Source of the DNA: Curtobacterium sp. 458
GTDB taxonomy: Bacteria > Actinomycetota > Actinomycetes > Actinomycetales > Microbacteriaceae
Length of the DNA: 64,000 nt
Reading direction: 5' to 3'
Assembly (NCBI RefSeq): GCF_030406605.1
Contig: NZ_CP129104.1
Coordinates: 818,072-882,071, forward strand
Shown in pieces: positions 9,715 through 25,142 of this stretch (the first letter of the stretch is position 1; every line of letters begins with the position of its first letter). The translations under genes were made by a program, and so were the position numbers. The notes beneath the pieces were generated by a model. That model was given only the letters and a program-made list of their open reading frames with translations. It was not told the DNA's origin and searched no databases.

Positions 9715-9720
9715 GCACGG

Positions 9721-10378: not shown

Positions 10379-10395
10379 CGTCCGCCGAGACGTCT

Positions 10396-11301: not shown

Positions 11302-11331
11302 AGGCCGGCACCCAAGGTAGGGAGCCGGCCT
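11302..11331. terminator. Hairpin between convergent genes
   Basis: AGGCCGGC (11302-11309) pairs with GCCGGCCT (11324-11331), loop 14 nt. It sits downstream of the secreted protein gene. No strong U-tract, so confidence is moderate. Confidence 0.5.
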
Positions 11332-11363
11332 CCGTCGTCCACGAGTCACCGCGGCACTGAGCT

Positions 11364-11380
11364 GTCTCGATAACCGATCG
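11364..11380 (-). repeat. Palindromic junction repeat, copy 8 (reverse orientation)
   Basis: GTCTCGATAACCGATCG is the reverse complement of CGATCGGTTATCGAGAC, the same variant as copy 9. The rest of 11218-11510 shows only the hairpin at 11302. Confidence 0.75.
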
Positions 11381-11510
11381 CACACCGATACCGGTCTAAC
11401 ACTCCCCACAAAGTAGGAACCCTGCCGCTGGGATCCCGTTCCGCATTCCAACGCGATCTCATGGCGCAGTGCCCTCGAATCGATCGATACGAGAACACTG
11501 CGGTGATCAG

Positions 11511-11942
11511 TCAGTCGCGCGTTCGGGTGCGCCTGTGCAGGATGGCTGTGGTCAGCATTGCCGCGCCCACGAGGGTCGGGTACCCGCTGGCGGCACCATA
11601 CGCGATCGCGTTCGCCGGGTTCGACCACGCACCGGGAGCAGAGGACCACGCGAGCTGATCAATGAACGCGAAGGCAACGAAAGCGAGCATCACGATGCCA
11701 GCGACAATCCCAACGATGCGCCACCGCCACCCTGTGACGACGGCGACAGCGATGACGATGGCGAGCAGCAACAGCATCAACGGGTTCACACCGGAACCAC
11801 CCGGGACCGGCGCCGATCCCACGACAGCCGTGACGTAAGACCCGATCATGCCGACCAGTACGCCAAGGATCGCCAATGCGACAGCCGCGGCCATTGGACG
11901 TCGATCGCTGTGCGACGCGGAGTGAGCTTCCGAAGCAGTCAT
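11511..11942 (-). CDS. Four-span membrane protein, possible partner of the secreted protein upstream
   Basis: A 143-aa protein with four hydrophobic helices and short loops; cytoplasmic basic ends (SDRRP, HRRTRTRD). Strong AAAGGAG Shine-Dalgarno before the ATG. It follows the secreted-protein gene at 11975-12652 by only 32 bp on the same strand, so the two are probably co-transcribed. A membrane immunity or export role for the secreted product is a reasonable but unproven idea. Confidence 0.7.
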   Translation of the reverse strand: MTASEAHSASHSDRRPMAAAVALAILGVLVGMIGSYVTAVVGSAPVPGGSGVNPLMLLLLAIVIAVAVVTGWRWRIVGIVAGIVMLAFVAFAFIDQLAWSSAPGAWSNPANAIAYGAASGYPTLVGAAMLTTAILHRRTRTRD

Positions 11943-11974
11943 GATCTCTCCTTTACTTCTTCGCCTCAGCGCGA

Positions 11975-12652
11975 CTAGATCGCGCAGGCCAGGTTCTTAT
12001 CAGGGGACAGCGACGTGGTCGACGAGCCGATCGCATTCTCCGAATGCCACTTCTGCGTCGAGGTGTTCTTGCACTTCGCATTCGTGGCCCAGTACGTCGT
12101 CTGGTTCGGAGCCGTGGTCTGCTCGTCACGGTCGCGGTAGTGCCACGAGGGCGGTGCGTACGACGACAACAGCCCGACAACCGTCACACTGCCGGAGCAA
12201 CCCGCGCTGCGACCGTAATCGTGGTACGACCAGGCGTAGCCGCTTTCCTTATAAGGAGTCTGGACCGTGTCCTTCACCGTGCAGCTCGCAGTAACCGCAC
12301 GCTGCACCACAACACCGTCTTTGTAGTTGACCTGCACGCTCTGCCCGGGCTCGAGCTTGCCAACGTCGGTCAGCGGCGTCATCGAATCGACAGTCACCGA
12401 TCGCACGGAGGCGTCGCTGCCCCTCGGCGTTACAAGCGTTGAATCCGGCTGACTCCGCAACGCCCGTACCGCTGCGCTATTCACCGGGACACCCTCAGAT
12501 GTCCGGTCGATGACTCGGTCCACCCCAGACGCCTCTGCCACGTCTGCGGACAGAGTCTGGGCACTTGCCGGGCCGGACGCAAACAGCGACATGCTCACCA
12601 CCCCCAACGCACCGATGGACCCCACCCACATCCTCGGCGTGCTCTTCCTCAC
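11975..12652 (-). CDS. Secreted protein with C-terminal Cys-rich domain
   Basis: A 225-aa precursor. The GTG start follows a GAGGGGGAA Shine-Dalgarno. Signal peptide around residues 1-31 (RKSTPRMW, hydrophobic core, ASA cleavage). The mature N-terminal part is acidic/Ser-rich. The C-terminal half has four Cys (ASCTVKD, SAGCSGS, NAKCKN, NLACAI) and many aromatic residues (YAWSYHDYG, SWHYRD). No known family. The downstream 143-aa membrane protein completes a secreted-plus-membrane pair. Confidence 0.7.
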   Translation of the reverse strand: MRKSTPRMWVGSIGALGVVSMSLFASGPASAQTLSADVAEASGVDRVIDRTSEGVPVNSAAVRALRSQPDSTLVTPRGSDASVRSVTVDSMTPLTDVGKLEPGQSVQVNYKDGVVVQRAVTASCTVKDTVQTPYKESGYAWSYHDYGRSAGCSGSVTVVGLLSSYAPPSWHYRDRDEQTTAPNQTTYWATNAKCKNTSTQKWHSENAIGSSTTSLSPDKNLACAI

Positions 12653-12950
12653 AAGTTCCCCCTCAATCGTCCTTGATTGCTTGCTGGCCCCCACACCGTA
12701 GACCGATCCGTCTGCAGATGACGATCTCGATCACATAACGGATGCGGAGAAGGAAACTTCACTTCGAACCGACCAGAACAAACTCACCACCGCCCACCCC
12801 CGACTCACCACCCAGCGGATGCGTCGCCGGCACCTGCTCCCTCCCGGCTCCGTCGCTCTCGGACGGAAGCATCACGCCCAACGACATGGGGCCGGCTCAA
12901 CGGCGTCACACCCATTCGGATACGCGGTTTAGACCCGTGACGGACCGTCC
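12653..12950. other. 298-bp intergenic region, no gene seen
   Basis: Holds the upstream region of the secreted protein gene (AT-richer, with GAAGGAAACTTCACTTCGAA around 12751-12770). An open frame at 12742-13008 has Pro/Arg-rich composition and no start signal and is not called. Confidence 0.5.
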
Positions 12951-12974
12951 GGTAGCCGATCGGTTATCGAGACC
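12951..12974 (+). repeat. Palindromic junction repeat, copy 9
   Basis: GGTAGCCGATCGGTTATCGA followed by GACC. It supplies the TAA stop (12966-12964) of the minus-strand tetR fragment. Confidence 0.85.
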
Positions 12975-13122
12975 TGTCGGACGAGTCGTGCGCGAGAAGG
13001 CGTCGTGAAGCATCTTCGATGAGCTCGTTCGCCGTCCTGGCTGAGATGCGGCGGCTCGCGGTGAACGTGGCGATGCCCTGCAGCAGAGAGGCGACGAGCG
13101 CTACTGACCCGCCACACAGTCC
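12964..13122 (-). pseudogene. TetR-family C-terminal fragment
   Basis: About 52 codons resembling the last two helices of a TetR regulator (SVALVASLLQGIATF, then TANELIEDASRRLLA). No start codon or DNA-binding domain precedes it and the upstream sequence is occupied by the opposite-strand gene at 13143, so this looks like a 5'-truncated remnant. It ends inside repeat copy 9. Confidence 0.5.
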
Positions 13123-13142
13123 GTGTGTGGTGGGTTGGAGCG

Positions 13143-13349
13143 ATGGATCAGCGATGCGGAGCAGTGTTCTGGGACCGATCGTGCTCGAAGCCTCGTGAGC
13201 ATGCCGGCCCTCACCGGCACGAGGGTGACGGATGCTTCACGCAGTGGGATGCTCCGCATGATGTGCCTGATGCGGAAGCCGCACTGTTCCTGGACGATCT
13301 GATGTCGTTCGTCGACACGGTCGGGCCACCTCGCACCCGGTCTGCCTGA
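13143..13349 (+). CDS. Small Cys/His-rich protein
   Basis: A 68-aa product whose N-terminal half spaces C, C, H, H, H and C (MDQRCGAVFWDRSC, then HAGPHRHEGDGC), a possible zinc site. The rest is acidic (DAEAALFLDDLMSF). A GGAG precedes the ATG at short spacing; a GTG 18 bases upstream is possible. Unknown function. Confidence 0.5.
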   Translation: MDQRCGAVFWDRSCSKPREHAGPHRHEGDGCFTQWDAPHDVPDAEAALFLDDLMSFVDTVGPPRTRSA

Positions 13350-13411
13350 TCGGCGTTGCCGAGGGCCTCGCGCATCGTGGCCTCCCGGTATCGGGGATGC
13401 GATGATGACGT

Positions 13412-13906
13412 GTGGCCCAGAGGCTGGTTGGGGGTGTGGTGAACGATTCGGTGGTGGCATCGCTCGGGTACGACCCGGTACGGATCACTCCTGTCGTGCA
13501 GCGTGCGCTGCAGTTTATGGATGAACGGCATGGCTGCGTTCTCGAGGTAGCGGATGTTGCCAATGCTGTCGGCATGGGTCCGCGTCGATTGCAGGAACTG
13601 TTCCAGATCGCGGTGGGTGAGTCGCCGATGAGCGTGCTTCGCCGTATCCGGCTCCTGCACACCCGTCGTCAGCTGTTGGATTCTGGTGAGGAGCGCACCG
13701 TCGGGCAGATTGCTCGGGCTGCGCAGCTGGTGCACCTCGGGAGGTTCTCTGGCCACTACGCTGCCGCGTTCGGAGAGGCCCCATCAGCCACGATCGCGCG
13801 CGTTCGCGGAACGGCACATCATCATGCCGGGGAGCGGTTCCCGCACCGATTCGACGTGCACCGCATGGAAGCGCACTGGCCCAGCCCACGGCCGCCAGCC
13901 GAGTAG
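13412..13906 (+). CDS. AraC-type helix-turn-helix DNA-binding protein
   Basis: A 164-aa paralogue of the product at 374-814: first HTH (LEVADVANAVGMGPRRLQELF), linker with RRIRLLHTRRQLL, second HTH (LGRFSGHYAAAFGEAPSATIARV). No N-terminal sensing domain. GTG at 13412 or a later GTG (about 13436, behind GGGGGTG) may start it. It stands between two tetR remnants. Confidence 0.78.
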   Translation: MAQRLVGGVVNDSVVASLGYDPVRITPVVQRALQFMDERHGCVLEVADVANAVGMGPRRLQELFQIAVGESPMSVLRRIRLLHTRRQLLDSGEERTVGQIARAAQLVHLGRFSGHYAAAFGEAPSATIARVRGTAHHHAGERFPHRFDVHRMEAHWPSPRPPAE

Positions 13907-14054
13907 TCGCCTTGAGGTGACTCCTCCGCCGCGGCCGTCAGGTTGTCACCGTCGTCTCGAACCACGGCACAAGCGCACGGTGGTGTGCCGAGACGAACTA
14001 AGCGGGCACCAACCGCGCGCTTGTTGCCGTAGCCGGGTGCTGCTGGCAGCGACC

Positions 14055-14507
14055 ATGGAGCGGTGGACGCTCACGATCTCCGGACCGTTGGCGCCCCTGA
14101 TCGGCGAGCAGGGCACCGTCGCGTTCCTGCGCGCGCTCCTCGCCGCGCATGCGGAGGAGTCGGCGCTGATGGAACTGTTGGCGTGGAGCCTGGCGTCCGC
14201 GGCGGACCCGACCGTGGACGGTGCTGACTACTACCGGTCCACGTACCGGCGGTTCCGGCAGGTGGTCCGGGACGGTCTCGCAGCGGACGTGCGGGAGGGC
14301 CGCGAGCCGGGGACGATGGACCCGCTCCGTCGTGCCGAGCAGCTCCTCGCCCTCTACGACGGGCTCCACCTGCAGGCGCTGCTGACGAGCGACACGGACC
14401 TGGTCGACTCCTTCGACCGGGCTGCGACGCGGATGAGTCGGGTTAGCCTGCAATCGGCTCGGTTTGAGCATGCTCCTGGGTCACGGTTCACCGTCCGTTC
14501 GCGGTGA
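14055..14507 (+). pseudogene. TetR-family regulator lacking its DNA-binding domain
   Basis: About 150 codons matching a TetR C-terminal ligand domain: PLAPLIGEQGTVAFLRALL, then LLAWSLASAADP, YYRSTYRRFRQVVRDGL, and LLALYDGLHLQALL. The N-terminal HTH (about 50 residues) is missing and none of the three frames upstream encodes it. Probably a 5'-deleted relic; expression from the ATG at 14055 is not excluded. Confidence 0.65.
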
Positions 14508-14514
14508 GGTCGCG

Positions 14515-14552
14515 GCGACGGTGCCAGGTCAGTGGGGCACTGGCACCGTCGC
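14515..14552 (+). terminator. 13-bp stem hairpin after the tetR relic
   Basis: GCGACGGTGCCAG (14515-14527) pairs exactly with CTGGCACCGTCGC (14540-14552), 12-nt loop. It directly precedes junction repeat copy 10. No U-run follows. Confidence 0.55.
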
Positions 14553-14554
14553 AG

Positions 14555-14571
14555 CGATCGGCTACAGGCAC
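14555..14571 (+). repeat. Palindromic junction repeat, half copy 10
   Basis: CGATCGGCTACAGGCAC keeps the right half of the consensus. Confidence 0.65.
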
Positions 14572-14640
14572 TACGGGCCCGCTGTCGGTGCCGAGCCGAG
14601 CGCCGGTGTTCAAGCGGAGTCGCCGATGACGTCTCAATTC

Positions 14641-14657
14641 CCGATCGGCTACCGGAC
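14641..14657 (+). repeat. Palindromic junction repeat, half copy 11
   Basis: CCGATCGGCTACCGGAC, ending 10 bp before the TAGACT hexamer of the next gene. Confidence 0.7.
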
Positions 14658-14679
14658 GGCGCGTACCTAGACTGCTTCG

Positions 14680-14928
14680 GTGAGTAGACAGACCCCGGGA
14701 CCACGTTTTTTCAGACGCCCGAAGTCCTTCGCCGGAGGGGAGGTCTGGATCGTTCAGCACGATGAGTCACCGGACAACACGGTTCTGGGTGTTTTCGCAA
14801 CGGACGCCGAGGCATACGCCTTCATGGACACGGTGAAGGACGACTACGAGAACGGTGTGATCTGCTCGAGCTTCCCCGTTCCGTACCGGTCCACCGATGG
14901 AGTTGTGCGCTACCAGACCGAGGACTGA
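14680..14928 (+). CDS. Hypothetical protein (82 aa)
   Basis: Soluble 82-aa product with basic N-terminus (RFFRRPKSF) and an acidic alpha/beta-like body (VWIVQHDE, VFATDAEAYAFMDTVKDDYENG). The GTG start is fixed by TAGACT ending six bases upstream. It is flanked on both sides by junction repeats (copies 11 and 12), like a single cassette. Unknown function. Confidence 0.7.
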   Translation: MSRQTPGPRFFRRPKSFAGGEVWIVQHDESPDNTVLGVFATDAEAYAFMDTVKDDYENGVICSSFPVPYRSTDGVVRYQTED

Positions 14929-14949
14929 CGTCCCGCCCCGTCCGTTGGT

Positions 14950-14968
14950 CGATCGGCTATTGAGACCC
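14950..14968 (+). repeat. Palindromic junction repeat, copy 12
   Basis: CGATCGGCTATTGAGACCC, close to the consensus right half. Lies between the 82-aa gene and the TIR gene. Confidence 0.75.
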
Positions 14969-15053
14969 CAGTTCCGAAGATTGGTCAGCGATGAGGCTTG
15001 AAGGCGGCAGGGTGCTGTGACGGTGGGACCCCTGCCTCGGCTACGGTCGCCAC

Positions 15054-15932
15054 GTGAAGGTTTTCATCAGCTGGTCAGGTCGAGCTGAACAGGCGGTCGC
15101 TGAGGCGCTTCGTGATGCACTCAAGACATTGTGCGTGGGTCAAGCCGAGGTGTTCGTGTCGAGTCAAGACATCGCGAAGGGTGAGCGTGGTGTCGGAGTG
15201 ATCGAGGCGCAGCTCGCCAGTACGGATTACGGGATCATCGTGCTGTCCGCAGCAAACCATGCGCGACCGTGGGTGAATTACGAGGGGGGAGCGCTGGCAA
15301 AGACTCTTGACAGCCCCGTATCGACGGTTCTCTTGGACATCAAGCCGAGTGACATCGACGGCCCGCTGGGTCCGTTCCAGGCGACGCGGTTCGAAGATCA
15401 GGGGGACATGAAAAGGCTTCTCTCTGAGGTGGCGGTTGCCGCCAGTCCAGAGATGCCACCCGGATCCATCGATGTGCTCTTTGAGTCCGTCTGGCCGGCG
15501 TTGTCTGCTTCGTGGAAGCCCGACGCCGCGGGTCGTCGAGAGCCGCTGCGCAGCAACCCCGACATGCTCGCCGAACTGATCGATCGAGTGCGGAACATCG
15601 AGTCCCAGCTGACGGCGGCGGACATGACATCCGTTGCACAGGCGGACGCGCTTCGCAGCAAGGCCATTCGTCGGCGCGCCCGGTCCGCCAGTTTGGGAGG
15701 TGTTGACCCGCATGATGCGCTCATGATGGATGACGTCATCGCGCAGGCTGCTGGTGGCCGTGTCCTGCTGCGCAGTGGCGGATCAGTCAACGGAGCTACT
15801 CGCATGCGTTTGGAGGCGACGGAGTGGGCTACTGATGCGGATCGCTTGGCTGCGGAGCAATCCCTGCGGGCGCTGATTCCCGGGGTGGCAATCGACTGGG
15901 TGATGAAGGATGGCGTGTCTCTCGCCCGGTAG
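15054..15932 (+). CDS. Standalone TIR-domain protein (candidate defence NADase)
   Basis: A 292-aa protein. Residues 1-110 form a TIR_2-type domain: opening KVFISWSG, FVSSQDIAKGE (BB-loop region), IIVLSAANH, and PWVNYEGGAL with E77 at the position of the catalytic Glu of NAD-cleaving TIR proteins. The C-terminal half (about 150-292) is not recognised and may sense or bind a ligand. TIR NADases act in phage-defence systems; here no partner gene is adjacent. GTG start supported by TACGGT ending six bases upstream. Confidence 0.8.
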   Translation: MKVFISWSGRAEQAVAEALRDALKTLCVGQAEVFVSSQDIAKGERGVGVIEAQLASTDYGIIVLSAANHARPWVNYEGGALAKTLDSPVSTVLLDIKPSDIDGPLGPFQATRFEDQGDMKRLLSEVAVAASPEMPPGSIDVLFESVWPALSASWKPDAAGRREPLRSNPDMLAELIDRVRNIESQLTAADMTSVAQADALRSKAIRRRARSASLGGVDPHDALMMDDVIAQAAGGRVLLRSGGSVNGATRMRLEATEWATDADRLAAEQSLRALIPGVAIDWVMKDGVSLAR

Positions 15933-16052
15933 CGAAAGCTGTTGAACGGCGCTGGAGCCCGAGGGCTGCTTGCGGGCGGCTTCGGCGTCTGCTGCATGAG
16001 GCCGACACGCAATAGGGCGGCCTCGACGATGCCTAGTAAGTCTTCACGGGGA

Positions 16053-16084
16053 ACGGCCCCGCACCGTGTTTGGTGCGGGGCCGT
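16053..16084. terminator. Strong bidirectional terminator hairpin
   Basis: ACGGCCCCGCACC (16053-16065) pairs perfectly with GGTGCGGGGCCGT (16072-16084), loop GTGTTT. It lies between the TIR gene and the convergent 36-aa gene, and can serve both. Confidence 0.8.
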
Positions 16085-16094
16085 CGTTTCCTGG

Positions 16095-16205
16095 TTACCC
16101 CTTGCGGGTCAGGTCGAGCAGGAACCTGGCGATCGTGACGGCGAGCGTCGCGATGCTGAGCCAGGGGATCTGTCGCCTGCGGCGGGGCTCGTTGTCGTCA
16201 GACAT
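16095..16205 (-). CDS. 36-aa single-span membrane peptide
   Basis: Below common gene-calling limits. ATG with a GGAG Shine-Dalgarno seven bases upstream. Product has a charged head (MSDDNEPRRRRQ), one hydrophobic helix (IPWLSIATLAVTIARFLL) and a short DLTRKG tail. It ends 10 bp before the terminator at 16053-16084, which supports it being a real transcription unit. Function unknown. Confidence 0.65.
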   Translation of the reverse strand: MSDDNEPRRRRQIPWLSIATLAVTIARFLLDLTRKG

Positions 16206-16239
16206 CGATCGTCTCCGTCGAGCGGAGCGTCCCACGCAC

Positions 16240-16259
16240 AATCGGCTGCTGAGACGACC
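16240..16259 (+). repeat. Palindromic junction repeat, half copy 13
   Basis: AATCGGCTGCTGAGACGACC, located between divergent small membrane genes, 20 bp before the start at 16280. Confidence 0.65.
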
Positions 16260-16279
16260 ACGAGCGGTAGGTTCGCCAC

Positions 16280-16483
16280 ATGGACGTGGTGAGCGCGAAA
16301 GTGCTGGGTTCGATCGCCCTCGTCTTTGGGATCGTCTTCGTCTCGACGTCGATCGTGCGTCTCACGCGTTCCGACGTCGACCTGCTGCTGGTGGTGCTCA
16401 ACACGGCGCTAGGAATCTTGTGGCTCGGCGCCGGGATCTGGATGTGGCGTTTCGGACTTCGCAAGTCGAAGGGCGACCGGTAG
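16280..16483 (+). CDS. Two-span small membrane protein (67 aa)
   Basis: Two membrane spans (VLGSIALVFGIVFVSTSIV and LLLVVLNTALGILWLGAGIW) and a basic tail (RFGLRKSKGDR). ATG with TAGGTT ending six bases upstream (leaderless). Its TAG stop is the first triplet of repeat copy 14. Confidence 0.7.
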   Translation: MDVVSAKVLGSIALVFGIVFVSTSIVRLTRSDVDLLLVVLNTALGILWLGAGIWMWRFGLRKSKGDR

Positions 16484-16502
16484 CGGATCAGTCAACGAGA
16501 CC
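16481..16502 (+). repeat. Palindromic junction repeat, degenerate copy 14
   Basis: TAGCGGATCAGTCAACGAGA followed by CC; divergent but aligned along its length with TAGCCGATCGGTTATCGAGACC. Last copy seen in the window. Confidence 0.55.
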
Positions 16503-16569
16503 TTCAGCGAGCCGCTGCCGGTCGTCTCTGCCTGCGTCGTCAGCATCCGCGGGGCGACCGTCCGCGAGA

Positions 16570-16719
16570 GCCGACGATCGAGGCATACTCGTGCGAGTAT
16601 TGAGTCATCCTTCACGCCCACGGAAAGGCGTGGGCGTTGCACTGCTCGCCGCACTCATCGAGTCGACCGAGGCCACCCCGTTGATCCTGTCCGGGGAACT
16701 CCTCGGGAACACCGCGTGA
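16570..16719 (+). pseudogene. GNAT acetyltransferase remnant
   Basis: About 49 codons containing the acetyl-CoA-binding style motif RKGVGVALLAALIESTE, which resembles the RGKGVG..LL..LI region of small GNAT resistance enzymes, followed by a degenerate SGELLGNTA. The N-terminal half and the C-terminal end are missing. Called a fragment. Confidence 0.4.
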
Positions 16720-16817
16720 CGCCGGTTTCGGTAGGGAATCAGCCGGCAAACGTTGACAGGCATCCGCCTCAACTACACGATGGTGCCCACCGACCCCGCG
16801 CCCGAACGGAGCCGACG

Positions 16818-17471
16818 ATGAGCCGACAGCGTCACCCGACTTCGTCACCCACCCCAGCACCTGCTTCCTCGCCTCCGCAGCGGCGGTGGCGCTGGAACCT
16901 GCTGTGGACTTGGACCACAGAACAGGGAGTTAAAGCAGCCCTCGTCGGCGGAGTTTTCCTGGTCATCGGGAGCCTGATTACGTCGCACTCAGAGCAGGAC
17001 TCGGCCCCGGCTTCGCCGATCACTGTAACCGCGCGGCCAGCCGCTGCGAAGCTAACGGTCGCCGACTCGTCGCGGAACGCCACAGTGTCGGAGGACGGGT
17101 TCGGGAACCACATCGTGCCGGTATCTGGATCGGTGTCCGGTCAACTCCGGGACGGGGAAGCGGTGTTCGTCGTGTGGCGAAACTTGAACGCTGCGACGGA
17201 CGGTCTCGACATCCATGAACGGCACGTGACGACGTCGCTGCCGTGCACGGTGAAGGGATCGACCTTCCGTTGCGACTCTCCCGTGCTCGGGGCAAGCAGA
17301 CCCCACTCGAGCACATCAGCGATCTGGGTGGGTGTTGCGTCCTCTAGCGCGACGAGGGCGCTCGCCTACGACTACTTCGCTCAGCAAAAGGTTGACGCGT
17401 CCGACGGCGGTCCACAGGCGGCGCCGGATGGGTTCCGAGTGGACGCGCAGTACCGAGTCAGCTGGCGGTAG
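16818..17471 (+). CDS. Membrane-anchored protein, unknown function
   Basis: A 217-aa protein with a Pro/Ser-rich cytoplasmic head, one membrane anchor (about residues 45-62, VKAALVGGVFLVIGSLI) and an exported domain rich in beta-type segments (VPVSGSVSGQLRDGEAVFVVWRN) with two Cys (LPCTVKG, FRCDS). ATG chosen for GGAG upstream. No family recognised. Confidence 0.65.
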   Translation: MSRQRHPTSSPTPAPASSPPQRRWRWNLLWTWTTEQGVKAALVGGVFLVIGSLITSHSEQDSAPASPITVTARPAAAKLTVADSSRNATVSEDGFGNHIVPVSGSVSGQLRDGEAVFVVWRNLNAATDGLDIHERHVTTSLPCTVKGSTFRCDSPVLGASRPHSSTSAIWVGVASSSATRALAYDYFAQQKVDASDGGPQAAPDGFRVDAQYRVSWR

Positions 17472-17619
17472 AGATTTCGTCCACGGGCGTCGCATCAACC
17501 TCGCCCTGCGCAATCGCACCGCGAGAGCATCGACAAGACCGCACCTCTCCCGCCCATCCAGTGCTCGTCCAGCGTCGTCAGCTCACGCTCGCAGGTGCTG
17601 CACCTTCTACGCTGTACGC

Positions 17620-17910
17620 ATGGCTCGTACTCCACGTTCGTTGCCGGTGGAGTTGACGCCGGCGCCGTGGCCGGACGCGCCGTCGGAGGATCCGTCTGCG
17701 GAAGTCGCTCGCCAGTTTGTGGTTCGTCTTCGGGAAGCGATGGGATCCCGGTCGTTGCGGTCCGTGGCTGAGCAGGTCGGCATTCACAACGTCACGTTGA
17801 TGAAGATCCTCCACGGCCGCGCTTGGCCCGACCTTGCAACGATCTCGCGGCTCGAGATCGGGTTGAACGCCGAGCTCTACTCGTCCCACGATGTTCGCGG
17901 CTCGCACTAG
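17620..17910 (+). CDS. XRE-type helix-turn-helix regulator
   Basis: A 96-aa protein with a single lambda-repressor-like HTH in residues 45-85 (RSLRSVAEQVGIHNVTLMKI, then WPDLATISRLEIGL). ATG preceded by TACGCT ending six bases upstream (leaderless). It could regulate the neighbouring recombinase-like genes; not shown. Confidence 0.8.
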   Translation: MARTPRSLPVELTPAPWPDAPSEDPSAEVARQFVVRLREAMGSRSLRSVAEQVGIHNVTLMKILHGRAWPDLATISRLEIGLNAELYSSHDVRGSH

Positions 17911-18313
17911 ACGTCATCCTTCGCCGGGGGAACAGATCGTCCGGTAACGACCATCTGGCGGAAGTAGCGCTCAAGTACGACGGCGCGGCCGTCGAAGCGA
18001 TGTGCGCGGTGCCGCGCGAGGGCACAGGAGCAGACGAGTGTGCTGCTCTCGCGTCGATGAGCAACGTCGCGAGTTCGACAAGCGCTGATTCGAGCGGGCC
18101 GTTGGTTTGCACGAGCCGCTCACCGTTGCTGAAGTCGGCGCTCGCTCCGACTTCCTGGTCGCCGCGGGTCAGGGCGACCCGCAGTTGCGTGCCGTGGTCG
18201 GCGACGTCGATTTGCACGCCCGCTGGGACGAGGAGACCCGTCACCCAGTCAAGGTCTACCGGCCCACCTCCCACATCCGTGACGCGAAACACGGCGGGGC
18301 CAAAACGATGCAT
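17792..18313 (-). CDS. Hypothetical protein, divergent from the first recombinase-like gene
   Basis: A 173-codon frame. The first 85 residues look like a folded protein (FRVTDVGGGPVDLDWVTGLL, ALTRGDQEVGASADFSN, LESALVELATLLIDAR). The remainder is Ser/Arg-rich and overlaps the opposite-strand XRE gene by 118 bp, so the true end is probably earlier and a frameshift is possible. No Shine-Dalgarno; unknown function. Confidence 0.4.
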   Translation of the reverse strand: MHRFGPAVFRVTDVGGGPVDLDWVTGLLVPAGVQIDVADHGTQLRVALTRGDQEVGASADFSNGERLVQTNGPLESALVELATLLIDARAAHSSAPVPSRGTAHIASTAAPSYLSATSARWSLPDDLFPRRRMTSSASREHRGTSRARRSTRSRAARSLQGRAKRGRGGSSST

Positions 18314-18341
18314 ACTGCTTATAGTAACCAGCGAGATGCAT
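18307..18341. promoter_or_regulatory. Divergent promoter region with repeated GATGCAT
   Basis: GATGCAT occurs at 18307-18313 and 18335-18341 around an AT-rich TATAGT, between the divergent starts at 18313 and 18404. It is a candidate operator, by position only. Confidence 0.3.
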
Positions 18342-18403
18342 GAACGCCAAGCTGAGGGGCACGCCGACACCTCAAACCCGCTGACCGGCGCAAGGGAGAC
18401 TCC

Positions 18404-19264
18404 GTGACATCGAACAGCAGTGGCGGCCGCCCGTACCGACCGCAGCTTCCCGCCAGGCAGTGGGAGGCAGTCGCGCCGTATGTCCACGATGTCGTCGCCC
18501 GCGCCGAACCACTCGTCATCTACTCCGCGAGGGAGCTCTACCCCGCCGTCACCCGTCTCGTTCTCTTCGCGAAGGACGAGTACGCGCCCCTCAAGGACGA
18601 TGCCGTCTTCAACCCGTACATGGTTGGCCGGTTCGTCGTCCATCACCTCGACGGGTACAGCCGTGCCAGCAGGAACACCATCAGAGCGCGCCTCCGACGC
18701 GTCTCCGAAGCGCTCCTCGGCGACGCAGCCGCGGGGACTTTCAAGAAGCTCGGGAAAGCTGATGCGGTCAGGCCGTACAGCCTCGCAGATCAAGCGTCCC
18801 TCGAAGGATGGTCTCGAGCACAGACCTCTGAAGAGCGACGCACGTCTGCCGCAGCGTTGCTCTCTCTCGGTTTCGGGTCCGGACTGACTGGCGCGGAAAT
18901 CATCCGGCAACGACTCGAAGATGTGCACGTTGACGGGGACCAGATGATGGTCGACGTGCACGGCCAGACTGCCCGCTCGGTCCCCGTCCTCTCGGATTGG
19001 TCCGCAGGTTTACACGCGCGCCGAGCGTTCATGCTCGGTTCCGGCTGGGCGTTCCGAACAGATCAGCGTGGGAGCAATGTCAACCTGATCACGGACTTCG
19101 TCTCCCGGACCGCGCCTCCGATGGAGATCCAGACCCGGCGTATGCGCGCGACGTGGCTGGTGTACCATCTCAACGCGCATACCTCGCTGAAGTATCTGCT
19201 CCGAGTCAGCGGCCTCACATCGGCAGAATCCCTCGACCGGGTGCTCCCCTACGCCGACGAGTAG
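18404..19264 (+). CDS. Tyrosine-recombinase-like protein 1 (lacks box-I arginine)
   Basis: A 286-aa protein. An N-terminal helical region (about 1-125) precedes a catalytic-like domain. Box I reads GFGSGLTGAEIIRQRLEDV, where the conserved Arg of integrases (GLR-E) is replaced. Box II keeps an Arg (R248 in RMRATW) and a Tyr lies 35 residues on (Y283 in VLPYAD), the canonical spacing; both box-II His positions are lost. GTG start with AAGGGAGA Shine-Dalgarno. It aligns along its length with the protein at 20064-21710. Likely a DNA-binding, perhaps non-catalytic, recombinase relative. Confidence 0.65.
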   Translation: MTSNSSGGRPYRPQLPARQWEAVAPYVHDVVARAEPLVIYSARELYPAVTRLVLFAKDEYAPLKDDAVFNPYMVGRFVVHHLDGYSRASRNTIRARLRRVSEALLGDAAAGTFKKLGKADAVRPYSLADQASLEGWSRAQTSEERRTSAAALLSLGFGSGLTGAEIIRQRLEDVHVDGDQMMVDVHGQTARSVPVLSDWSAGLHARRAFMLGSGWAFRTDQRGSNVNLITDFVSRTAPPMEIQTRRMRATWLVYHLNAHTSLKYLLRVSGLTSAESLDRVLPYADE

Positions 19265-19443
19265 CAACGAGTCCGACTGGGCATCAACGTCGCGGGATTC
19301 AGCACGCTACCGCCCCACTTCATCACAGTCAGGAACGCGAACTGCGTCAGCGGCAACACGGCTAGGAGGCCGAAGCCACAACCAACGAGCCAGCGCAGTT
19401 GCCGAAGTTCGCGTTCATCCCGAGGAGCCGGCCGCGTCGTCAT
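19249..19443 (-). CDS. Possible small membrane protein (64 aa)
   Basis: Charged N-terminus (RPAPRDERELRQLR) and one membrane span (LVGCGFGLLAVLPLTQFAFL). Its 3' end overlaps the end of the recombinase-like gene by 16 bp on the opposite strand. Weak Shine-Dalgarno. Tentative. Confidence 0.4.
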   Translation of the reverse strand: MTTRPAPRDERELRQLRWLVGCGFGLLAVLPLTQFAFLTVMKWGGSVLNPATLMPSRTRCYSSA

Positions 19444-19479
19444 GCCCGCCCGTATGCGGCGAAGCCGCCTCCGGCGCGG

Positions 19480-19731
19480 CTACTCACTCTCCTCCCTCGA
19501 CCCCCGATACGTGGGCCCGCGAAGGGCTGCGATCTCAGCAAGCACCGCGGCAAGATCCGCGGCGTCGTCGAGGTCGAACTGCACCTGACCGCCGATCGGC
19601 CCGTTGATCGTGACGACGCCGCGGTCAAAGACAAGGTCGAGGTCATCCATGATCGTTGCCCGGACTGTCCCGTCGCGGTGCGTGTACAGCCGGCTGGGCT
19701 GCTGCTCTTCAAACATCTTCTTCTCGTGCAT
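19480..19731 (-). CDS. Small hypothetical protein (83 aa)
   Basis: ATG with GGAAGGG Shine-Dalgarno eight bases upstream. Product is soluble and acidic with beta-like pattern (VRATIMDDLDLVFDRGVVTI, then FDLDDAADLAAVLAEIAAL), ending TYRGSREESE. No family recognised. It is divergent from the second recombinase-like gene. Confidence 0.6.
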   Translation of the reverse strand: MHEKKMFEEQQPSRLYTHRDGTVRATIMDDLDLVFDRGVVTINGPIGGQVQFDLDDAADLAAVLAEIAALRGPTYRGSREESE

Positions 19732-19908
19732 GACTGGTGCCCTTCCTGCCGCAGCCGAGCGCTGCCGCGGGATAGGTATGCGCGGATGAGCCACAAGATC
19801 GCCACGTGTCGGTGCCGCCGACGCACGCAACGACGTGTGTTTCATCGCATTGCGCTCCTCAGCGCCTCCTCCGCGTTGTGCCTTCAGCACTTCGAAAGGG
19901 CGATACCC

Positions 19909-20037
19909 GTGACAGCGACCCCGAGCGACACGCCCGAAAGCGGCATCCAAAAGCTGGGCACGCTACCTCATGAGATGCCCGCTGACCAGGGAAAAGTCCT
20001 CTTGAGCCGCAGCAGTGGGATCTCAGATCGCAGCTGA
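19909..20037 (+). CDS. Possible 42-aa ORF before the second recombinase-like gene
   Basis: GTG frame with AAAGGG upstream, reading VTATPSDTPESGIQKLGTL and ending ISDRS 26 bp before the next start. Short, no family; it may be an upstream coding leader. The rest of 19732-20063 shows nothing else. Confidence 0.3.
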   Translation: MTATPSDTPESGIQKLGTLPHEMPADQGKVLLSRSSGISDRS

Positions 20038-20063
20038 TCGGTCTGGCCGCGCATAGCCGAGGC

Positions 20064-21710
20064 GTGATGAATCCCAAGCCAACCCCTTCCGAAGCCGCCA
20101 TCGTCGTAGCACACTCTGATGATAACAATCAGCACAACTCGCTGCAGATTCGGGAGGCACTGTTGAAGTACCGACCCGTCAACGTCCTGCCCGCGGACTG
20201 GAACCGAGTGAAGGAGTTCTGCCGCCAAGCCGTTCTCACCTACGGACCCGCGAACGCGAAAGTCGCTGCGGAGATGCTCTCCACGGTCACCCTCTTCGTC
20301 CTCTGGGCAACCAATCAGGAGCACGCGCCGCTCAGCTACGGCGCCATTTTCCACCCCTCATTGATGGGCAGATACCTCCGCAGCCGCGTCAGCGACAAGA
20401 AGAGCGGCTCGTTCAAGACTCTCCGCTCCCGGCTCTTCCGAGTTGCCAGCGCCGTCACCAGCATCGAGCACCACAAGACAAAGCGGGACACCACCTTCGT
20501 GCCAGTGCACGAGTACACGGCTACCGAACTCGCGGAACTCGAAGGCTGGGCTGCGACCCAGAACACACCAGAACGGCGACGGTACGCGTACATCACGCTC
20601 GCACTCATGGGCGGCGCCGGCCTCGCCATGACCGAGGCACTCGGGGTGCGCGGCGCCGACATCCACCACAGCGCTGATGGGCACACCGTACGAGTAGTCG
20701 GCCGCCGTGCCCGAGTCATCCCGGTCCACGCCGACTGGGAGCGCTACCTCGACGAGCCCAGCACCCACTTCATCGACGGCGAACATGTCCTCTTCCCCGG
20801 GCAGACACCGCGAGGACGCGAAACGACGCTCCGAACGCTCTACCGCGGCCCACACCCGGCGCCGAACCCACAATGGCTCCGCGACACCTGGCTGCTCCAG
20901 CTCGTTCGCACGCTCCCGCTCAGCATCGTCATGCAAGCAGTCGGCACATCGGACGTCATCCGCTTCCGACGCTACTTCGACGCTGCCCACCTCAACTTCG
21001 ACCAGTGGCACGGGGCTGTCCGCAATCCCGCCGCATACAGACCAGTCGTGAACACCACCAGCGACGACATCATCGCGTCCGACGGACCCAGCTGGCGTGC
21101 CGTGCACGAGAGAGCTCGCGTCGAGGCTACATCGAGTGCCGTGAAGCCAAACCGCGCGCCCATGGGCTCCGCCGTGGATGACGCGGCCGAGTCGGACAGC
21201 ACGACTTACCCGCCTCGTCCGCAAGGTCGACGCCGCCCGCGTGACCCGGACCACGGCAAGTACGCGCGGCGACCCAGGAGAGTCGACACCCACGAACAGG
21301 CGCTCACGTCGGACAGCACCGCCGTCCCAGCCGGGACCCTTGCGGTTCCGTTCAGGCGTGGCGAGCAGCCATTGACAGCTGACAGCACTGCGATTCCCGT
21401 CGGCACCCCGGCGGCACCGTTCGAGCGTGCCGCTTCGACGGAACCGCCGGAAGGCCACGGAGGCCGGCCCGTACATAAGGCGGGGCGCGAGCCTCGGCGC
21501 ATCGAAGCTCTCGAAGGCGACTGGTCGCCCAAGCGCTCGCGAAAGACGTCTCGGTACGAGGCCCTGCCACCCGGAATCGCGCAGCGCCCGGCGCGGGCGG
21601 AGGAAGCCACCGCTGAGAGCACCTTCGACGCGAGTGACCTGATGTTCGCCGCCATCCGGGAAGGGCTCCTCGCAGAAGCGCGCCGGTCTGCGCGGGGCGG
21701 GAAGCGATGA
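20064..21710 (+). CDS. Tyrosine-recombinase-like protein 2 with repeat-rich tail
   Basis: A 548-aa protein. Residues 1-340 align with the product at 18404-19264 (APL..A.F.P..MGR, LEGW...Q...ERR, GL...E, DIH). Box I has A188 where integrases have Arg (GAGLAMTEAL). R273 (LRDTW) and Y304 (RRYFD) occupy box-II Arg and Tyr positions, while the His residues are replaced. Residues 365-548 are disordered, Arg/Pro/Ser-rich, with two imperfect copies of a unit starting LTSDSTAVPAGTLAVPF. The stop overlaps the transposase start (ATGA), so the two proteins are probably made in fixed ratio and act together. Confidence 0.65.
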   Translation: MMNPKPTPSEAAIVVAHSDDNNQHNSLQIREALLKYRPVNVLPADWNRVKEFCRQAVLTYGPANAKVAAEMLSTVTLFVLWATNQEHAPLSYGAIFHPSLMGRYLRSRVSDKKSGSFKTLRSRLFRVASAVTSIEHHKTKRDTTFVPVHEYTATELAELEGWAATQNTPERRRYAYITLALMGGAGLAMTEALGVRGADIHHSADGHTVRVVGRRARVIPVHADWERYLDEPSTHFIDGEHVLFPGQTPRGRETTLRTLYRGPHPAPNPQWLRDTWLLQLVRTLPLSIVMQAVGTSDVIRFRRYFDAAHLNFDQWHGAVRNPAAYRPVVNTTSDDIIASDGPSWRAVHERARVEATSSAVKPNRAPMGSAVDDAAESDSTTYPPRPQGRRRPRDPDHGKYARRPRRVDTHEQALTSDSTAVPAGTLAVPFRRGEQPLTADSTAIPVGTPAAPFERAASTEPPEGHGGRPVHKAGREPRRIEALEGDWSPKRSRKTSRYEALPPGIAQRPARAEEATAESTFDASDLMFAAIREGLLAEARRSARGGKR

Positions 21711-23653
21711 CCGGCTTGGCGAACACGTGGGACAACACTGTCGCCACGACGTTCGACGTGCTCCGCACAGTCGGAGAGGGCGGACTCACCGAGGCTGAGG
21801 TGAAGGCGGGTCCCGGCCCGATGACTCCCATCGACGGCGACCTGGCGCAGGCATGGCTCGACCGTGTCGTCCAGTCTCAGGTCCTGCCACCCCTCGGTGT
21901 GTGGCGGCGCCGGAACCGTGAACGCGCCGGGAAGCGAAACGGCGGCCCGGCACCAGCCATCAATGACGCGGTCATCCTCACCATCGCGCTCATCCTCGTC
22001 ATCGAGCACTCGTCGGTCCGCGTGCAGGACATGGCGCGGGCGCTGCAGCACCGGCTCACCCCTGAGGCCCGAGAGGTGCTCGGCATCGGCCACCTCTACG
22101 ACAACCCGTTCACCAACTGGTACTTCCTCGCCCACCGCGCCATCCACCGCGTCATCGCCACGTTCGACCCGTACATCACCAACGACGGCGCGGAACGGAA
22201 CCAGTGGAAGGCGATGACGTACGAGGACCGCATCGCGTGGGAAGCCGCCGTCGACCAGGAGTTCGTCGCGGAACTGAACGCCCGCGCCGAATGGTTCATG
22301 AACGCGCTCGTGGAGATGTCGCTCCAGCAGCAGGCTCGGAAGTATCGACGGCGGAAGACCGCGATGACCATCGACCAGAGCGGCGTGAAAGCCGGAGCGG
22401 TCATGGCCCGATGGAAGCGGGACCCGAAGACCGGCAAGGAGATTCCGCAGAAAAACGCTCTCGACCCGACGACCAACGAGCCGGAGGCCCGTCGCGTCCG
22501 GGCGATGGAGGCCGATTGGGTGACGAAGAAGAAGGGTGCGAAGAAGCGCAACGCCGACGAAGAGGAACGTATCTCCCGCTTCAAGTGGGAGCTGGGTTAC
22601 ATGGCGAACATCATCATCGACGTCCTCGAGGACCCCAACGCCGACAAGAAGCTCTACGCACCGCAACTCATCCGTGCCATCAGCCTCGGAACCCCGAACA
22701 AGCGCATCGGCGGTCACGCCATCTCGCTCCTCGACTCGCTGCAAGCACGCGGCTACGAACTGACACGGTTGAGCTTCGACCGCGGCTACTCGCAACTCAA
22801 AGACGAGTTCCACGAGCAGCTCGTCGCTCGTGGCATCCCTGTGGTGAAGGACTACGTCGACCGGCAGAAGGGCATCACCAACGGCGCCATCGGCAACTCC
22901 ATCATGGTTGAAGGCCGCTACTACTGCCCCTCGACACCACTAGACCTGCTCGAATCCACGAAGAACTGGGAGCAGGGCAAACTCACCAACGAGGAGTACT
23001 GGGCCAAGCGGAAGAAGCTCGAGAAGTACGAACTCATCCTGCACGAGCAGAAGCCCAATGGCACGCTCCGCCTCTCCTGCCCTGCATCGGGGCCGTCGCC
23101 GACAGCGTCGTGCCCGCTCCGCGAGCTGATGAAGGGTGCGGTGCCCGACGAGGAAGCGGACCGTGCTCGCATCCAGCCGTCGAACATCACTGACCGGCAG
23201 AAGGACTATAAGGTCTGCTGCCAGAAGTCGGTATCGGTGAAGCCGACGACGCATGTGCAGCAGCGGCAGAAGCTCCGCTACGGCAGCAAGGAATGGTTCG
23301 ACACGTACCGGGCCGACCGAAACAGCAGCGAGTCCTCCAACGACCTGCTGCAGAAGGACCACAATCTCGAGAACACGATGGCTCGGCCCATGCACGGCCT
23401 CGCCGCGCAGCAGTTCGCCCTCGCCCTCTTCGCCGTCGCATCGAACATGCGACGCATCATCCAGTACGAACACGACGTCTACGAACTGGAACGTCGAGCC
23501 GCAGCAGGCCGCGCACCGCAGCCGCGAAAGCAGCCCGGCGAGTACCTCGAGCGCGCCCGCGACCGCAACCGCGAGACCCGGTACATGCGGAACCCGCCAC
23601 CTCGGAAACTGGTGCCGTGGGAACCGTTAGAGCTACCACCCGTGCCCGCGTAG
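21707..23653 (+). CDS. Large DDE-transposase-like protein
   Basis: A 648-aa protein. The N-terminal region is helical; the catalytic region has D223 (MTIDQSG), D358 (SFDRGYSQ) and E542 (NSSESSNDLLQ), a spacing compatible with a DDE/RNase H fold carrying an insertion. The downstream GLAAQQFALALFAVASNMRR resembles the C-terminal helix of IS1182/IS5-like transposases. A Cys-containing segment (PASGPSPTASCPL, KVCCQK) lies between the second and third acidic residues. Translationally coupled to the recombinase-like gene upstream. No inverted repeats flanking it were seen. Confidence 0.7.
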   Translation: MTGLANTWDNTVATTFDVLRTVGEGGLTEAEVKAGPGPMTPIDGDLAQAWLDRVVQSQVLPPLGVWRRRNRERAGKRNGGPAPAINDAVILTIALILVIEHSSVRVQDMARALQHRLTPEAREVLGIGHLYDNPFTNWYFLAHRAIHRVIATFDPYITNDGAERNQWKAMTYEDRIAWEAAVDQEFVAELNARAEWFMNALVEMSLQQQARKYRRRKTAMTIDQSGVKAGAVMARWKRDPKTGKEIPQKNALDPTTNEPEARRVRAMEADWVTKKKGAKKRNADEEERISRFKWELGYMANIIIDVLEDPNADKKLYAPQLIRAISLGTPNKRIGGHAISLLDSLQARGYELTRLSFDRGYSQLKDEFHEQLVARGIPVVKDYVDRQKGITNGAIGNSIMVEGRYYCPSTPLDLLESTKNWEQGKLTNEEYWAKRKKLEKYELILHEQKPNGTLRLSCPASGPSPTASCPLRELMKGAVPDEEADRARIQPSNITDRQKDYKVCCQKSVSVKPTTHVQQRQKLRYGSKEWFDTYRADRNSSESSNDLLQKDHNLENTMARPMHGLAAQQFALALFAVASNMRRIIQYEHDVYELERRAAAGRAPQPRKQPGEYLERARDRNRETRYMRNPPPRKLVPWEPLELPPVPA

Positions 23654-23721
23654 CGGGCTGACCCGCACCGGCAACGCCGGCAGGACCAAACAACACACCC
23701 ACACACCCCGACGCTCCGTCA

Positions 23722-23772
23722 CGCCCGAAAACAGGGTGGAAGCAGCCGGGGTGCTTCGGCGCGCCCGAAAAC
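23722..23772 (+). repeat. Direct repeat CGCCCGAAAAC (two copies, 40-bp period)
   Basis: Copies at 23722-23732 and 23762-23772, between the transposase-like gene and the terminator. A GGAAGCA...TGCTTC hairpin lies between them. They may be protein-binding sites at the right end of the module. A related ACGCCCGAAA occurs at 19928-19937. Confidence 0.4.
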
Positions 23773-23859
23773 GAACTGGCGACAACGCACCGAGCGCACA
23801 AGCAGCCGCAGATCCGTCCGAGAGCGCCGAAACCGAGCCCCGATCAGCCCCCGAGAACC

Positions 23860-23893
23860 AGAAGAGCCCCCGGCCGAAGCCGGGGGCTCTTCT
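23860..23893. terminator. Strong bidirectional terminator
   Basis: AGAAGAGCCCCCGGC (23860-23874) pairs perfectly with GCCGGGGGCTCTTCT (23879-23893), loop CGAA. Serves the minus-strand tRNA-Ser and the plus-strand transposase-like gene. Confidence 0.85.
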
Positions 23894-23900
23894 GTTGGGT

Positions 23901-23933
23901 CAGACCTGCAAATGCTGGAGACCAGACCTGCAA
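23901..23933 (+). repeat. Direct repeat CAGACCTGCAA next to tRNA-Ser 3' end
   Basis: Two exact 11-bp copies at 23901-23911 and 23923-23933 (22-bp period), ending 9 bp before the CCA end of tRNA-Ser. Could be recombinase arm or core sites for the adjacent module, or the remains of an insertion junction. Confidence 0.45.
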
Positions 23934-23942
23934 TCAACCCCG

Positions 23943-24032
23943 TGGCGGTACCGGTGGGATTTGAACCCACGGTGGAGTTGCCCCCACACATGTTTTCGAG
24001 ACATGATCCTTCGGCCGCTCGGACACGGTACC
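23943..24032 (-). tRNA. tRNA-Ser (CGA)
   Basis: A 90-nt class II tRNA with encoded CCA. Acceptor GGTACCG pairs with CGGTACC; anticodon loop CTCGAAA gives CGA (reads UCG); a long variable arm (TGTGGGGGCAACTCCACC region) and T-loop GGTTCAAATCC are present. A TAAACT hexamer (24045-24040) lies seven bases upstream as the probable -10. Its 3' end faces the accessory region. Confidence 0.95.
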
Positions 24033-24176
24033 GGGAAAGAGTTTACACGATCCGGGAGGCCCGTCGCACCACCGGCAGGTCGGCCAGCCCTCCACAGGTG
24101 GCTGATCGGGTGCGCTCGTCCACCGTTCAGCCCTCGCACCGAGAACGGTCGAACGGCCCCGCGTACCGTCCACCGC

Positions 24177-25142
24177 ATGAAGTCACGCACCATCTTCGCC
24201 CTGCTCTCGTCGATCCTCGGCGGACTGACGGTCGTCGGTGCCGGGCTGTTCGGCGCCCGGGCCGGGATCCGCGGGCAACGGGCTGCCTCGCAGCGGGTGG
24301 TCGACATGCTCCCCGTGAACGCCCAGTGGTGGCGCGAGCACCTGCAGCACGACGGGCAGCTGACCTACCTCGCGATCGGCGACTCCGCGGCACAGGGGGT
24401 CGGAGCGACGGTCCCGAACCGCGGCTACGTCGGACTACTCGCACGGCGGATCCGGCACCGCTCGCGGATGACGGTCCGCGTGGTGAACCTCAGCGTGTCC
24501 GGGGCCACGACCTGGGCGGCGAAGCAGGACCAGCTGCCGAAGCTCCGCGGGTACACGCCCGACATCTGCACGGTGTCCATCGGGGCGAACGACATCGCCG
24601 ACTTCGACCCGGACAAGTTCGAGCGCAACATCCGGGCGATCTACGGCGCAGTACCGTCGCACGCGATCGTGGCCGAGCTGCCGTGCATGTTCGTACCGGA
24701 CCGGGAGCGCAAGGTCGCGGTTGCGAACGAGATCGTGCACCGCGTCGCCGACGAGCTGGGGCTGACGGTCGCTCCGCTGCACGTCATCACGAAGCGCGTC
24801 GGGCTCCGTCGGACGTTCTTCAACAGCTACGGCGACCTCTTCCACCCGAACGACCGCGGGTACGAGATCTGGGCGAGCGCGTTCGAGCCGGCGGTCGATG
24901 CCCGGGTCGACACGGTGGCGGCGATCCGGCAGTACCTGTCCGCTCGCGAGGCCGAGGAGCTGGGTTCGGGCGCGGGTGCGGTCGCGGCGGCGCGCGCGGA
25001 GCGGGACACCGACGACGCCGGTGCGCTCGACCATGCCGACCGCCCGGGTCGGGTCGACCGCCTGCGGCGTCGGATGACCGGATCGATCCCGCTGCCCGAG
25101 CACGCCGAGCGTCGCACGGGTGATGTCGGCGGCTCGGCCTAG
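24177..25142 (+). CDS. SGNH/GDSL-family hydrolase
   Basis: A 321-aa esterase-type protein with an N-terminal membrane anchor or signal (about residues 5-27). SGNH motifs: GDSAAQG with nucleophile S70, GANDI (Asn block III), and DLFHPND with D220 and H223. The C-terminal 60 residues are charged and probably disordered. Probably a cell-surface lipase or acyl hydrolase. TACCGT lies seven bases before the ATG. Confidence 0.9.
   Translation: MKSRTIFALLSSILGGLTVVGAGLFGARAGIRGQRAASQRVVDMLPVNAQWWREHLQHDGQLTYLAIGDSAAQGVGATVPNRGYVGLLARRIRHRSRMTVRVVNLSVSGATTWAAKQDQLPKLRGYTPDICTVSIGANDIADFDPDKFERNIRAIYGAVPSHAIVAELPCMFVPDRERKVAVANEIVHRVADELGLTVAPLHVITKRVGLRRTFFNSYGDLFHPNDRGYEIWASAFEPAVDARVDTVAAIRQYLSAREAEELGSGAGAVAAARAERDTDDAGALDHADRPGRVDRLRRRMTGSIPLPEHAERRTGDVGGSA

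Follow-up and report, generated by a model that had tools for sequence, protein, structure and literature searches.

Few DDE transposons are site-specific, and the best-known large group of them, Tn7 with its CRISPR-associated relatives, needs an AAA+ protein and a target-selector hub. Tyrosine-integrase islands insert at the 3' end of tRNA genes, with the module by the tRNA and a large, variable cargo, and Tn554-type and RIT elements have several tyrosine-recombinase-fold proteins side by side, which are active, do the chemistry and have no DDE partner. The nearest precedent for the locus described here is TnsF of the Tn7-like transposon Tn6022, which has TnsA, TnsB, TnsC and TniQ (Faure et al. 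2023, PMC10293859). According to that report, TnsF, a protein with an inactivated tyrosine-recombinase domain, targets Tn6022 to comM and is needed for this insertion in E. coli; it has zinc fingers at its N-terminus, core-binding domains in tandem and only part of a catalytic domain (PMC10293859). In this work, we analyzed a stretch of 64,000 nucleotides from the chromosome of Curtobacterium sp. 458 (hereafter the window), in which two degenerate tyrosine-recombinase-fold proteins, Rec1 and Rec2, are encoded together with a DDE transposase. The three genes make up the module at the right end of an element of 48,437 bp, and they are probably the right-end machinery of a tRNA-homing DDE transposon, in which the DDE protein would do the chemistry and the catalytically dead Recs would select the tRNA.

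Like Tn6022 with TnsF, this element is a DDE transposon with an inactivated tyrosine-recombinase domain. Since TnsF aims Tn6022, a dead recombinase as target selector is already known from that account, but the architecture here is not that of Tn7. Rec1, at 286 aa, resembles TnsF neither in length nor in its layout of zinc fingers, tandem core-binding domains and partial catalytic domain; its predicted model matches XerA along residues 22-283, and a Tn5-like transposase and tRNA gene targets are seen instead of the features of Tn6022. Membership in the Tn7-like group was rejected because the scanned open reading frames (ORFs) showed no rve-type DDE domain, no TnsC and no TniQ/TnsD, and because the best fold match was Tn5. 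Pfam gave no rve or TniQ domain in 38 scanned proteins of the window's element, a subset of its ORFs; TnsC (AAA+) and TniQ/TnsD were found neither among its 35 scanned non-module ORFs, again a subset, nor among the 4 cargo ORFs of a 7.4-kb element in another actinomycete family (locus L191). With Tn554-type and RIT elements, the locus shares neighboring tyrosine-recombinase-fold genes in one mobile element. The features of the module and of the right end of the element are as follows.

1..23940, no strand: in-window part of the 48,437-bp transposon, supported by the left end outside the window, the empty-site join and GC content
18404..19264, plus strand: Rec1, degenerate tyrosine-recombinase-fold protein, 286 aa, proposed target selector
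20064..21710, plus strand: Rec2, degenerate tyrosine-recombinase-fold protein with a long C-terminal extension, 548 aa, proposed target selector
21707..23653, plus strand: DDE transposase, 648 aa, proposed catalytic subunit
23859..23894, plus strand: terminator-like hairpin that follows the DDE gene and precedes the right end, with a folding energy of -36.2 kcal/mol and a z-score of -7.0 relative to shuffled sequences
23901..23911, plus strand: right-end tandem repeat CAGACCTGCAA, inner copy
23923..23933, plus strand: right-end tandem repeat CAGACCTGCAA, outer copy, 22 bp from the inner copy
23919..23940, minus strand: right terminal inverted repeat GGGTTGATTGCAGGTCTGGTCT (minus-strand reading), identical to the left end at 15/22 positions
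23941..23946, no strand: right 6-bp copy of the target-site duplication CGTGGC, the final four bases of which are the tRNA 3' end
23943..24032, minus strand: target tRNA-Ser (CGA), intact (ARAGORN)

The whole transposon lies at G000:C1:793575-842011, which corresponds to window positions -24496..23940 with position 0 counted (G and L numbers are labels of the compared genomes and DDE loci, and G000 is the window's own genome). Its left terminal inverted repeat GGGTCATTTGCAGGTCTC, directly preceded by the left copy of CGTGGC, sits 24.5 kb left of the window. The duplication consists of 2 bases past the tRNA gene and the last 4 bases of the gene, and the tRNA is therefore kept whole. The GC content of the element is 65.3%, compared with 72.8% in its left flank. 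For the empty-site test, the flanks of 6 elements were joined minus one duplication copy and compared with tRNA regions of relatives. Over 359 bp that span the junction, the joined flanks of the window's element share 87% identity with an uninterrupted tRNA-Ser region of G014, and those of the G001 element matched G009 (91.7% over 192 bp) as well as G042, G064 and G017 (79-80% over 294-369 bp). The left flanks of the G059 and G006 elements resembled the right end of other elements of the same family, as expected for stacking, and the joined flanks of G045 and G016 had no match among the loci compared. The tRNA target, the element ends and the length of 48 kb go beyond the first-pass annotation of this DNA, which had proposed a mobile unit of recombinase-fold and DDE proteins; that such a unit exists is supported by the ends, the duplication and the empty sites, and the joint function of its proteins is what we infer below.

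A search for a target duplication plus an inverted repeat, covering 34 Curtobacterium islands and 31 tRNA-flanked loci of other taxa, gave full elements at tRNA 3' ends in 7 of the 34 islands (tRNA-Ser, -Pro and -Leu). Besides the window's element, these were the following.

G001: 27,402 bp, duplication TGTGGC
G059: 34,919 bp, duplication TGTGGC
G045, G006 and G009: 32,619 bp, 15,863 bp and 9,837 bp, duplication TTCGGT, tRNA-Pro
G016: 26,847 bp, duplication CTGGT, tRNA-Leu

Among the loci of other taxa, 2/31 were delimited (L157, 9,040 bp; L191, 7,396 bp), both with a 5-bp duplication and a score reached by 0/300 decoys each. For G059 and G045, none of 1000 decoy draws reached the real score. 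The decisive junction was found in G059, in which TGTGGC and then the right end in inverted orientation come after an old right end. By eye, the right ends of many lineages follow one plan: a hairpin rich in GC precedes two repeats of 11-12 bp in tandem, the element closes with CC or CCC, and 2-4 bases separate it from the tRNA. The paired repeats recur despite different sequences. At one tRNA-Ser of G059 (L044/L099/L100, G059:C2), insertions are stacked, with two older right ends behind the newest element, one of which precedes a 28-bp tRNA fragment, and an older right end seems to lie just left of the L191 element.

An integrase gene beside a tRNA gene is the classical island layout, and some tRNA-Ser islands in the genus, e.g. 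in G042, show 28-bp copies of the tRNA 3' end, so we considered whether the Recs could be active, unusual tyrosine recombinases that integrate the island at the tRNA site, with the DDE gene as an accessory. This is very improbable and already largely refuted by the ends, since the delimited elements have terminal inverted repeats and a 5-6-bp duplication and no 28-bp tRNA repeat. Compared with tyrosine-integrase islands, the window's element has only 4 tRNA bases in its 6-bp duplication and no 28-bp repeat on the left, together with terminal inverted repeats and degenerate recombinase domains. Its left junction holds CGTGGC only, and a single copy of the tRNA 3' end was found in the 43-kb stretch searched, which ends short of the left end. 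Inspection of the junctions led us to reject the 28-bp tRNA-Ser fragments in G028, G059 and G042 as attachment sites of this element. In G028 and G059, the fragments are on the right-hand side of old DDE right ends, and in G042 they belong to an island that has no DDE match, which is the pattern that classical integrations at this tRNA at a later time would be expected to leave. The G042 island (L103, G042:C1:185000-199000) is a 7.6-kb tRNA-Ser island between 28-bp tRNA 3'-end repeats, with a classical integrase-type layout.

The residues of the Recs also argue against active tyrosine integration, which was rejected for the absent catalytic residues together with the short duplication and the inverted repeats. 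As the first-pass annotation had stated, the two proteins are homologous and of integrase layout (hhalign E 5.6e-32), and they keep the XerA/Cre fold of the tyrosine-recombinase superfamily. The loss of the box-I Arg and box-II His that it had noticed in the window extends to the family. Among 63 aligned Curtobacterium Recs (3 short fragments excluded), the hairpin Arg (63/63), the box-II Arg (62/62 with a letter there) and the box-III Gly (63) are kept, whereas the box-I Arg is present in 12/63, the box-II His in 0/62 and the box-III His in 0/61. A Tyr anywhere 27-41 residues past the box-II Arg was found in 28/62, at scattered positions. The residue set of an active tyrosine recombinase (box-I Arg, box-II His, box-III His/Trp and Tyr nucleophile) is not retained, and no Tyr is conserved. 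In 47 further rows (45 Recs of other genera and families and the two of the window), the box-I Arg was seen in 10, the box-II His in 0, the box-III His in 0 and the box-II Arg in 45. The Recs are degenerate across the whole family, beyond this window. The element has no PF00589 recombinase, and the 3 matches of the genome all lie elsewhere.

Movement also appears to be independent of a recombinase tyrosine. In the tRNA-Gln modules L065-L069, neither Rec1 nor Rec2 has a Tyr in the region of the missing nucleophile, and G018 (L067) and G032 (L066), which count as two species by the database sampling of one genome per species, have in common a 49,834-bp block at 99.74% identity that holds the tRNA-Gln module, with a right flank at 83-90%. 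These Recs within a near-identical block in two species suggest movement without the tyrosine, unless another enzyme moved the block; no matching inverted repeat was seen at its left break.

In contrast to the Recs, the DDE protein is the sole module protein with a conserved active site. The residues D223, D358 and E542, which had been proposed as its triad, are invariant among the homologues, a further point against active Recs, and an RNase H fold was found in a model of middling confidence (pLDDT 67.8). A second structural aligner gave Tn5 as the best fold match; Foldseek alone gave no significant match (best E 0.04). The model has an N-terminal helical region at residues 29-206. The window protein had no Pfam family above cut-off and no DDE-family match. 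The sole sub-threshold DDE matches in Pfam came from the relative P0020 (PF13751, E 0.0021, 18.8 bits, below the cut-off of 25.1; PF01609, E 0.084), and rve gave no match up to E 1 in the window protein or in the relatives P0020 and P0022. The protein differs from the Tn5/IS4 superfamily in the long N-terminal helical region, the lack of a Pfam family above cut-off, the tRNA targeting, the linked Recs and the size of the element, up to 48 kb here.

The module recurs widely. With the window DDE protein as query, matches were found in 33/66 Curtobacterium genomes, and with a tRNA-Pro-type DDE protein in 38/199 Microbacteriaceae genomes (26/85 genera) and 16/394 class-drawn genomes (12/138 genera), the window's own genome included in each case. 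A separate scan of genome contigs gave 8 loci in Curtobacterium, Frondihabitans and another Microbacteriaceae. Six Streptomyces plasmids had partial tblastn matches covering 35-42% of the window DDE protein, and the module of the one plasmid inspected consists of two genes that overlap at their junction and are annotated as hypothetical; phage records gave no tblastn match to the same query. We examined 75 regions around a subset of the matches plus the window (76 loci), of which 60 have a complete DDE frame (at least 550 aa and a profile score above 350). Rec genes occur at 59 of these 60 (two or more at 40, one at 19, none at 1). The Rec stop overlaps the predicted in-frame DDE start as ATGA, the junction noticed in the window, in 35/59 and as GTGA or TTGA in 11 more (46/59). 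The genome of the window itself has a second, divergent Rec-Rec-DDE module at tRNA-Gln(TTG) (G000:C1:347210-351754; L040 6842-12328).

The tRNA-Ser(CGA) gene is a hotspot with stacked remnants, and the three genes could in principle be chance neighbors, i.e. decaying integrases by an unrelated insertion sequence. We find this scarcely credible and rejected it on the Rec linkage in 59/60 complete loci; in addition, the same gene set turns up beside 13 types of tRNA in separate genera and families. A further argument against it is that, in each of the three genes, the window and G001 differ most often at the third position of codons. In Rec1, 50, 40 and 136 differences fall on positions 1, 2 and 3 (275 codons); the counts are 150, 149 and 243 for Rec2 (542 codons) and 31, 18 and 179 for the DDE gene (648 codons). 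In this comparison, the divergence of the Recs outpaces that of the DDE protein.

By raw count, 60 of the 76 loci have a tRNA gene that faces the DDE end at no more than 900 bp, 51 of them at 99-299 bp; many of the loci are near relatives, and they are therefore not 76 independent events. The tRNA types are Ser(CGA), Ser(GCT), Leu(CAG), Leu(GAG), Pro(GGG), Pro(CGG), Gln, Lys, Met, Ala(CGC), Ala(TGC), Arg and Gly. Within Curtobacterium, the module sits at five different tRNA genes; with its presence in 33/66 genomes and the 13 tRNA types overall, it is not fixed at one site in all relatives. On a tree of 61 DDE rows, the tRNA type is strongly clustered: 20 changes suffice for the 14 labels (the 8 rows without a label share one), whereas shuffling gave 40.9 on average and 0/200 shuffles as low. 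When only the 53 labelled rows are considered, of which six were labelled by hand, the number of changes is 14. Lineages thus tend to keep a tRNA, with several switches.

Based on these results, a mechanism can be proposed. The IS4/Tn5-like DDE protein would bind the terminal repeats, cut, and transfer the strands, leaving a 5-6-bp target duplication. Rec1 and Rec2, as tyrosine-recombinase descendants without catalytic residues, would be sequence-specific DNA-binding subunits, which may recognize the tRNA gene, position the transposase at its exact 3' end and hand the target over. With the tRNA left intact, it would be a safe and universal landing site for an element with tens of kilobases of cargo including phage-defense genes. 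A Tn5-like transposase carries no expectation of a strict target, and therefore something must aim the transposition. Tyrosine integrases are the classical recognizers of tRNA 3' halves; because of this, and because overlapping junctions are common and the linkage is 59/60, the dead Recs are natural candidates. The element ends with their target duplication, an empty site, the location at tRNA genes, the gene linkage, and the invariant DDE and degenerate Rec residues can be read directly from the sequences. From them we infer that most likely the DDE protein does the chemistry by itself and that the choice of the tRNA most likely falls to the Recs and not to the DDE protein alone.

Several observations weigh against target selection by the Recs or against the delimitation of the elements. 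First, the Recs could bind the transposon ends, i.e. the tandem repeats, instead of the target. It is unlikely, on balance, that they serve the transpososome by binding its ends or as architectural subunits, or that they are regulators, with the N-terminal helical domain of the DDE protein reading the tRNA end. The one-Rec modules L188, L191 and L198 also have two right-end repeats, so the repeat number does not follow the Rec number, which weakens this explanation a little. SroF, YopR and MrpR have the integrase fold in common with the Rec1 model, and some of them are titled repressor or regulator in the PDB; these recombinase-fold phage proteins are regulators with no known transposase linkage. 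Second, 16/76 loci have no tRNA facing the DDE end. These are L040, with an over-long frame past its tRNA-Gln; L048, whose tRNA-Ser is more distant; L051-L053, with a tRNA-Ser on the opposite side; L047 and L194, where the contig ends at the DDE gene; L057, L154, L155 and L168; two remnants (L076 and L077); and the outgroup loci L070, L072 and L073, which have Recs and no adjacent tRNA. Third, an uninterrupted site was found for only 2 of the 6 joined elements (the window's and G001). Fourth, no left end was found in 27 of the 34 islands, many of them fetched over 15-19 kb only; left ends are missing in this search for all 8 tRNA-Gln islands, for tRNA-Lys and for most tRNA-Ser elements, and the left end of G046 is 3 bp out of register. 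Finally, decoy ends reached the real score in 5 of 1000 draws for the window's element, 5 for G001, 1 for G006 and 10 for G009, and in 202 for G016, where the duplication was forced to 6 bp although 5 fits.

L070 and L072 have a 5,552-bp block that is 92% identical between dissimilar flanks, with the order Rec-DDE-Rec. Together with L073, they form the outgroup of the family and may have another target.

The cargo of the window's element includes a Kiwa-like pair, a TIR-TM-type protein and a DUF4365 protein with an Aga_REase-type match in PADLOC, together with a two-component system, a LysE-type exporter, an MFS protein and a sodium/proton exchanger. In the L191 element, a CHAT-domain protein gene (5279-6412) is carried. 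Between the cargo genes of the window's element lies an array of imperfect palindromes, found with a position weight matrix (PWM).

-13652..-11899 (L096 5420-7173): KwaA-like and KwaB-like genes (Kiwa defense), cargo
15054..15932, plus strand: TIR-domain cargo protein (PADLOC TIR-TM)
6401..16505, both orientations: 12-copy array of a 28-29-bp imperfect palindrome, consensus CGTCCGGTAGCCGATCGGCTATCGAGACG, with PWM starts at 6401, 7904, 8513, 9438, 9989, 10360, 10540, 11360, 12942, 14627, 14935 and 16470

The palindrome has two arms of about 11 bp flanking CGATCG, a dif-like layout. At up to 3 mismatches, it occurs in 44/66 Curtobacterium genomes, and a reversed control gave 0 hits. In seven elements that are fully or almost fully delimited, taken together with their flanks, 35 copies fall within the element (in 4/7 elements) and 1 falls outside. 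A 4.1-kb segment that is present in L068 and absent from L066 has copies at its borders, suggesting cassettes. The palindromes were dropped as a target of Rec1/Rec2: they are found in genomes without a DDE match and are absent from the G001, G059 and G046 elements, and they are therefore treated as cargo, apparently outside the transposition module.

In conclusion, related elements are spread across actinobacteria, with key genes filed as proteins of unknown function. A literature search of open-licence papers gave no description of this transposon family, in line with the first-pass annotation, and the family appears to be undescribed. We lean towards the view that it represents an undescribed class of transposons of the Actinomycetes, in which one to three dead Recs directly steer a Tn5-like DDE transposase without AAA+ or TniQ proteins, and in which a change of Rec retargets the element to another tRNA. 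If this is true, it would be a natural modular site-specific insertion system and a second, independent route to targeted transposition, with a domesticated integrase linked straight to a Tn5-like transposase, and dead recombinases would have been recruited for aiming more than once. tRNA islands without a working integrase could thereby be explained. If swapping of Recs retargets insertion, the module would be a compact tool for DNA insertion at actinomycete tRNA genes. In addition, since the window's element carries phage-defense cargo (Kiwa and TIR), such elements bear on the spread of defense genes.

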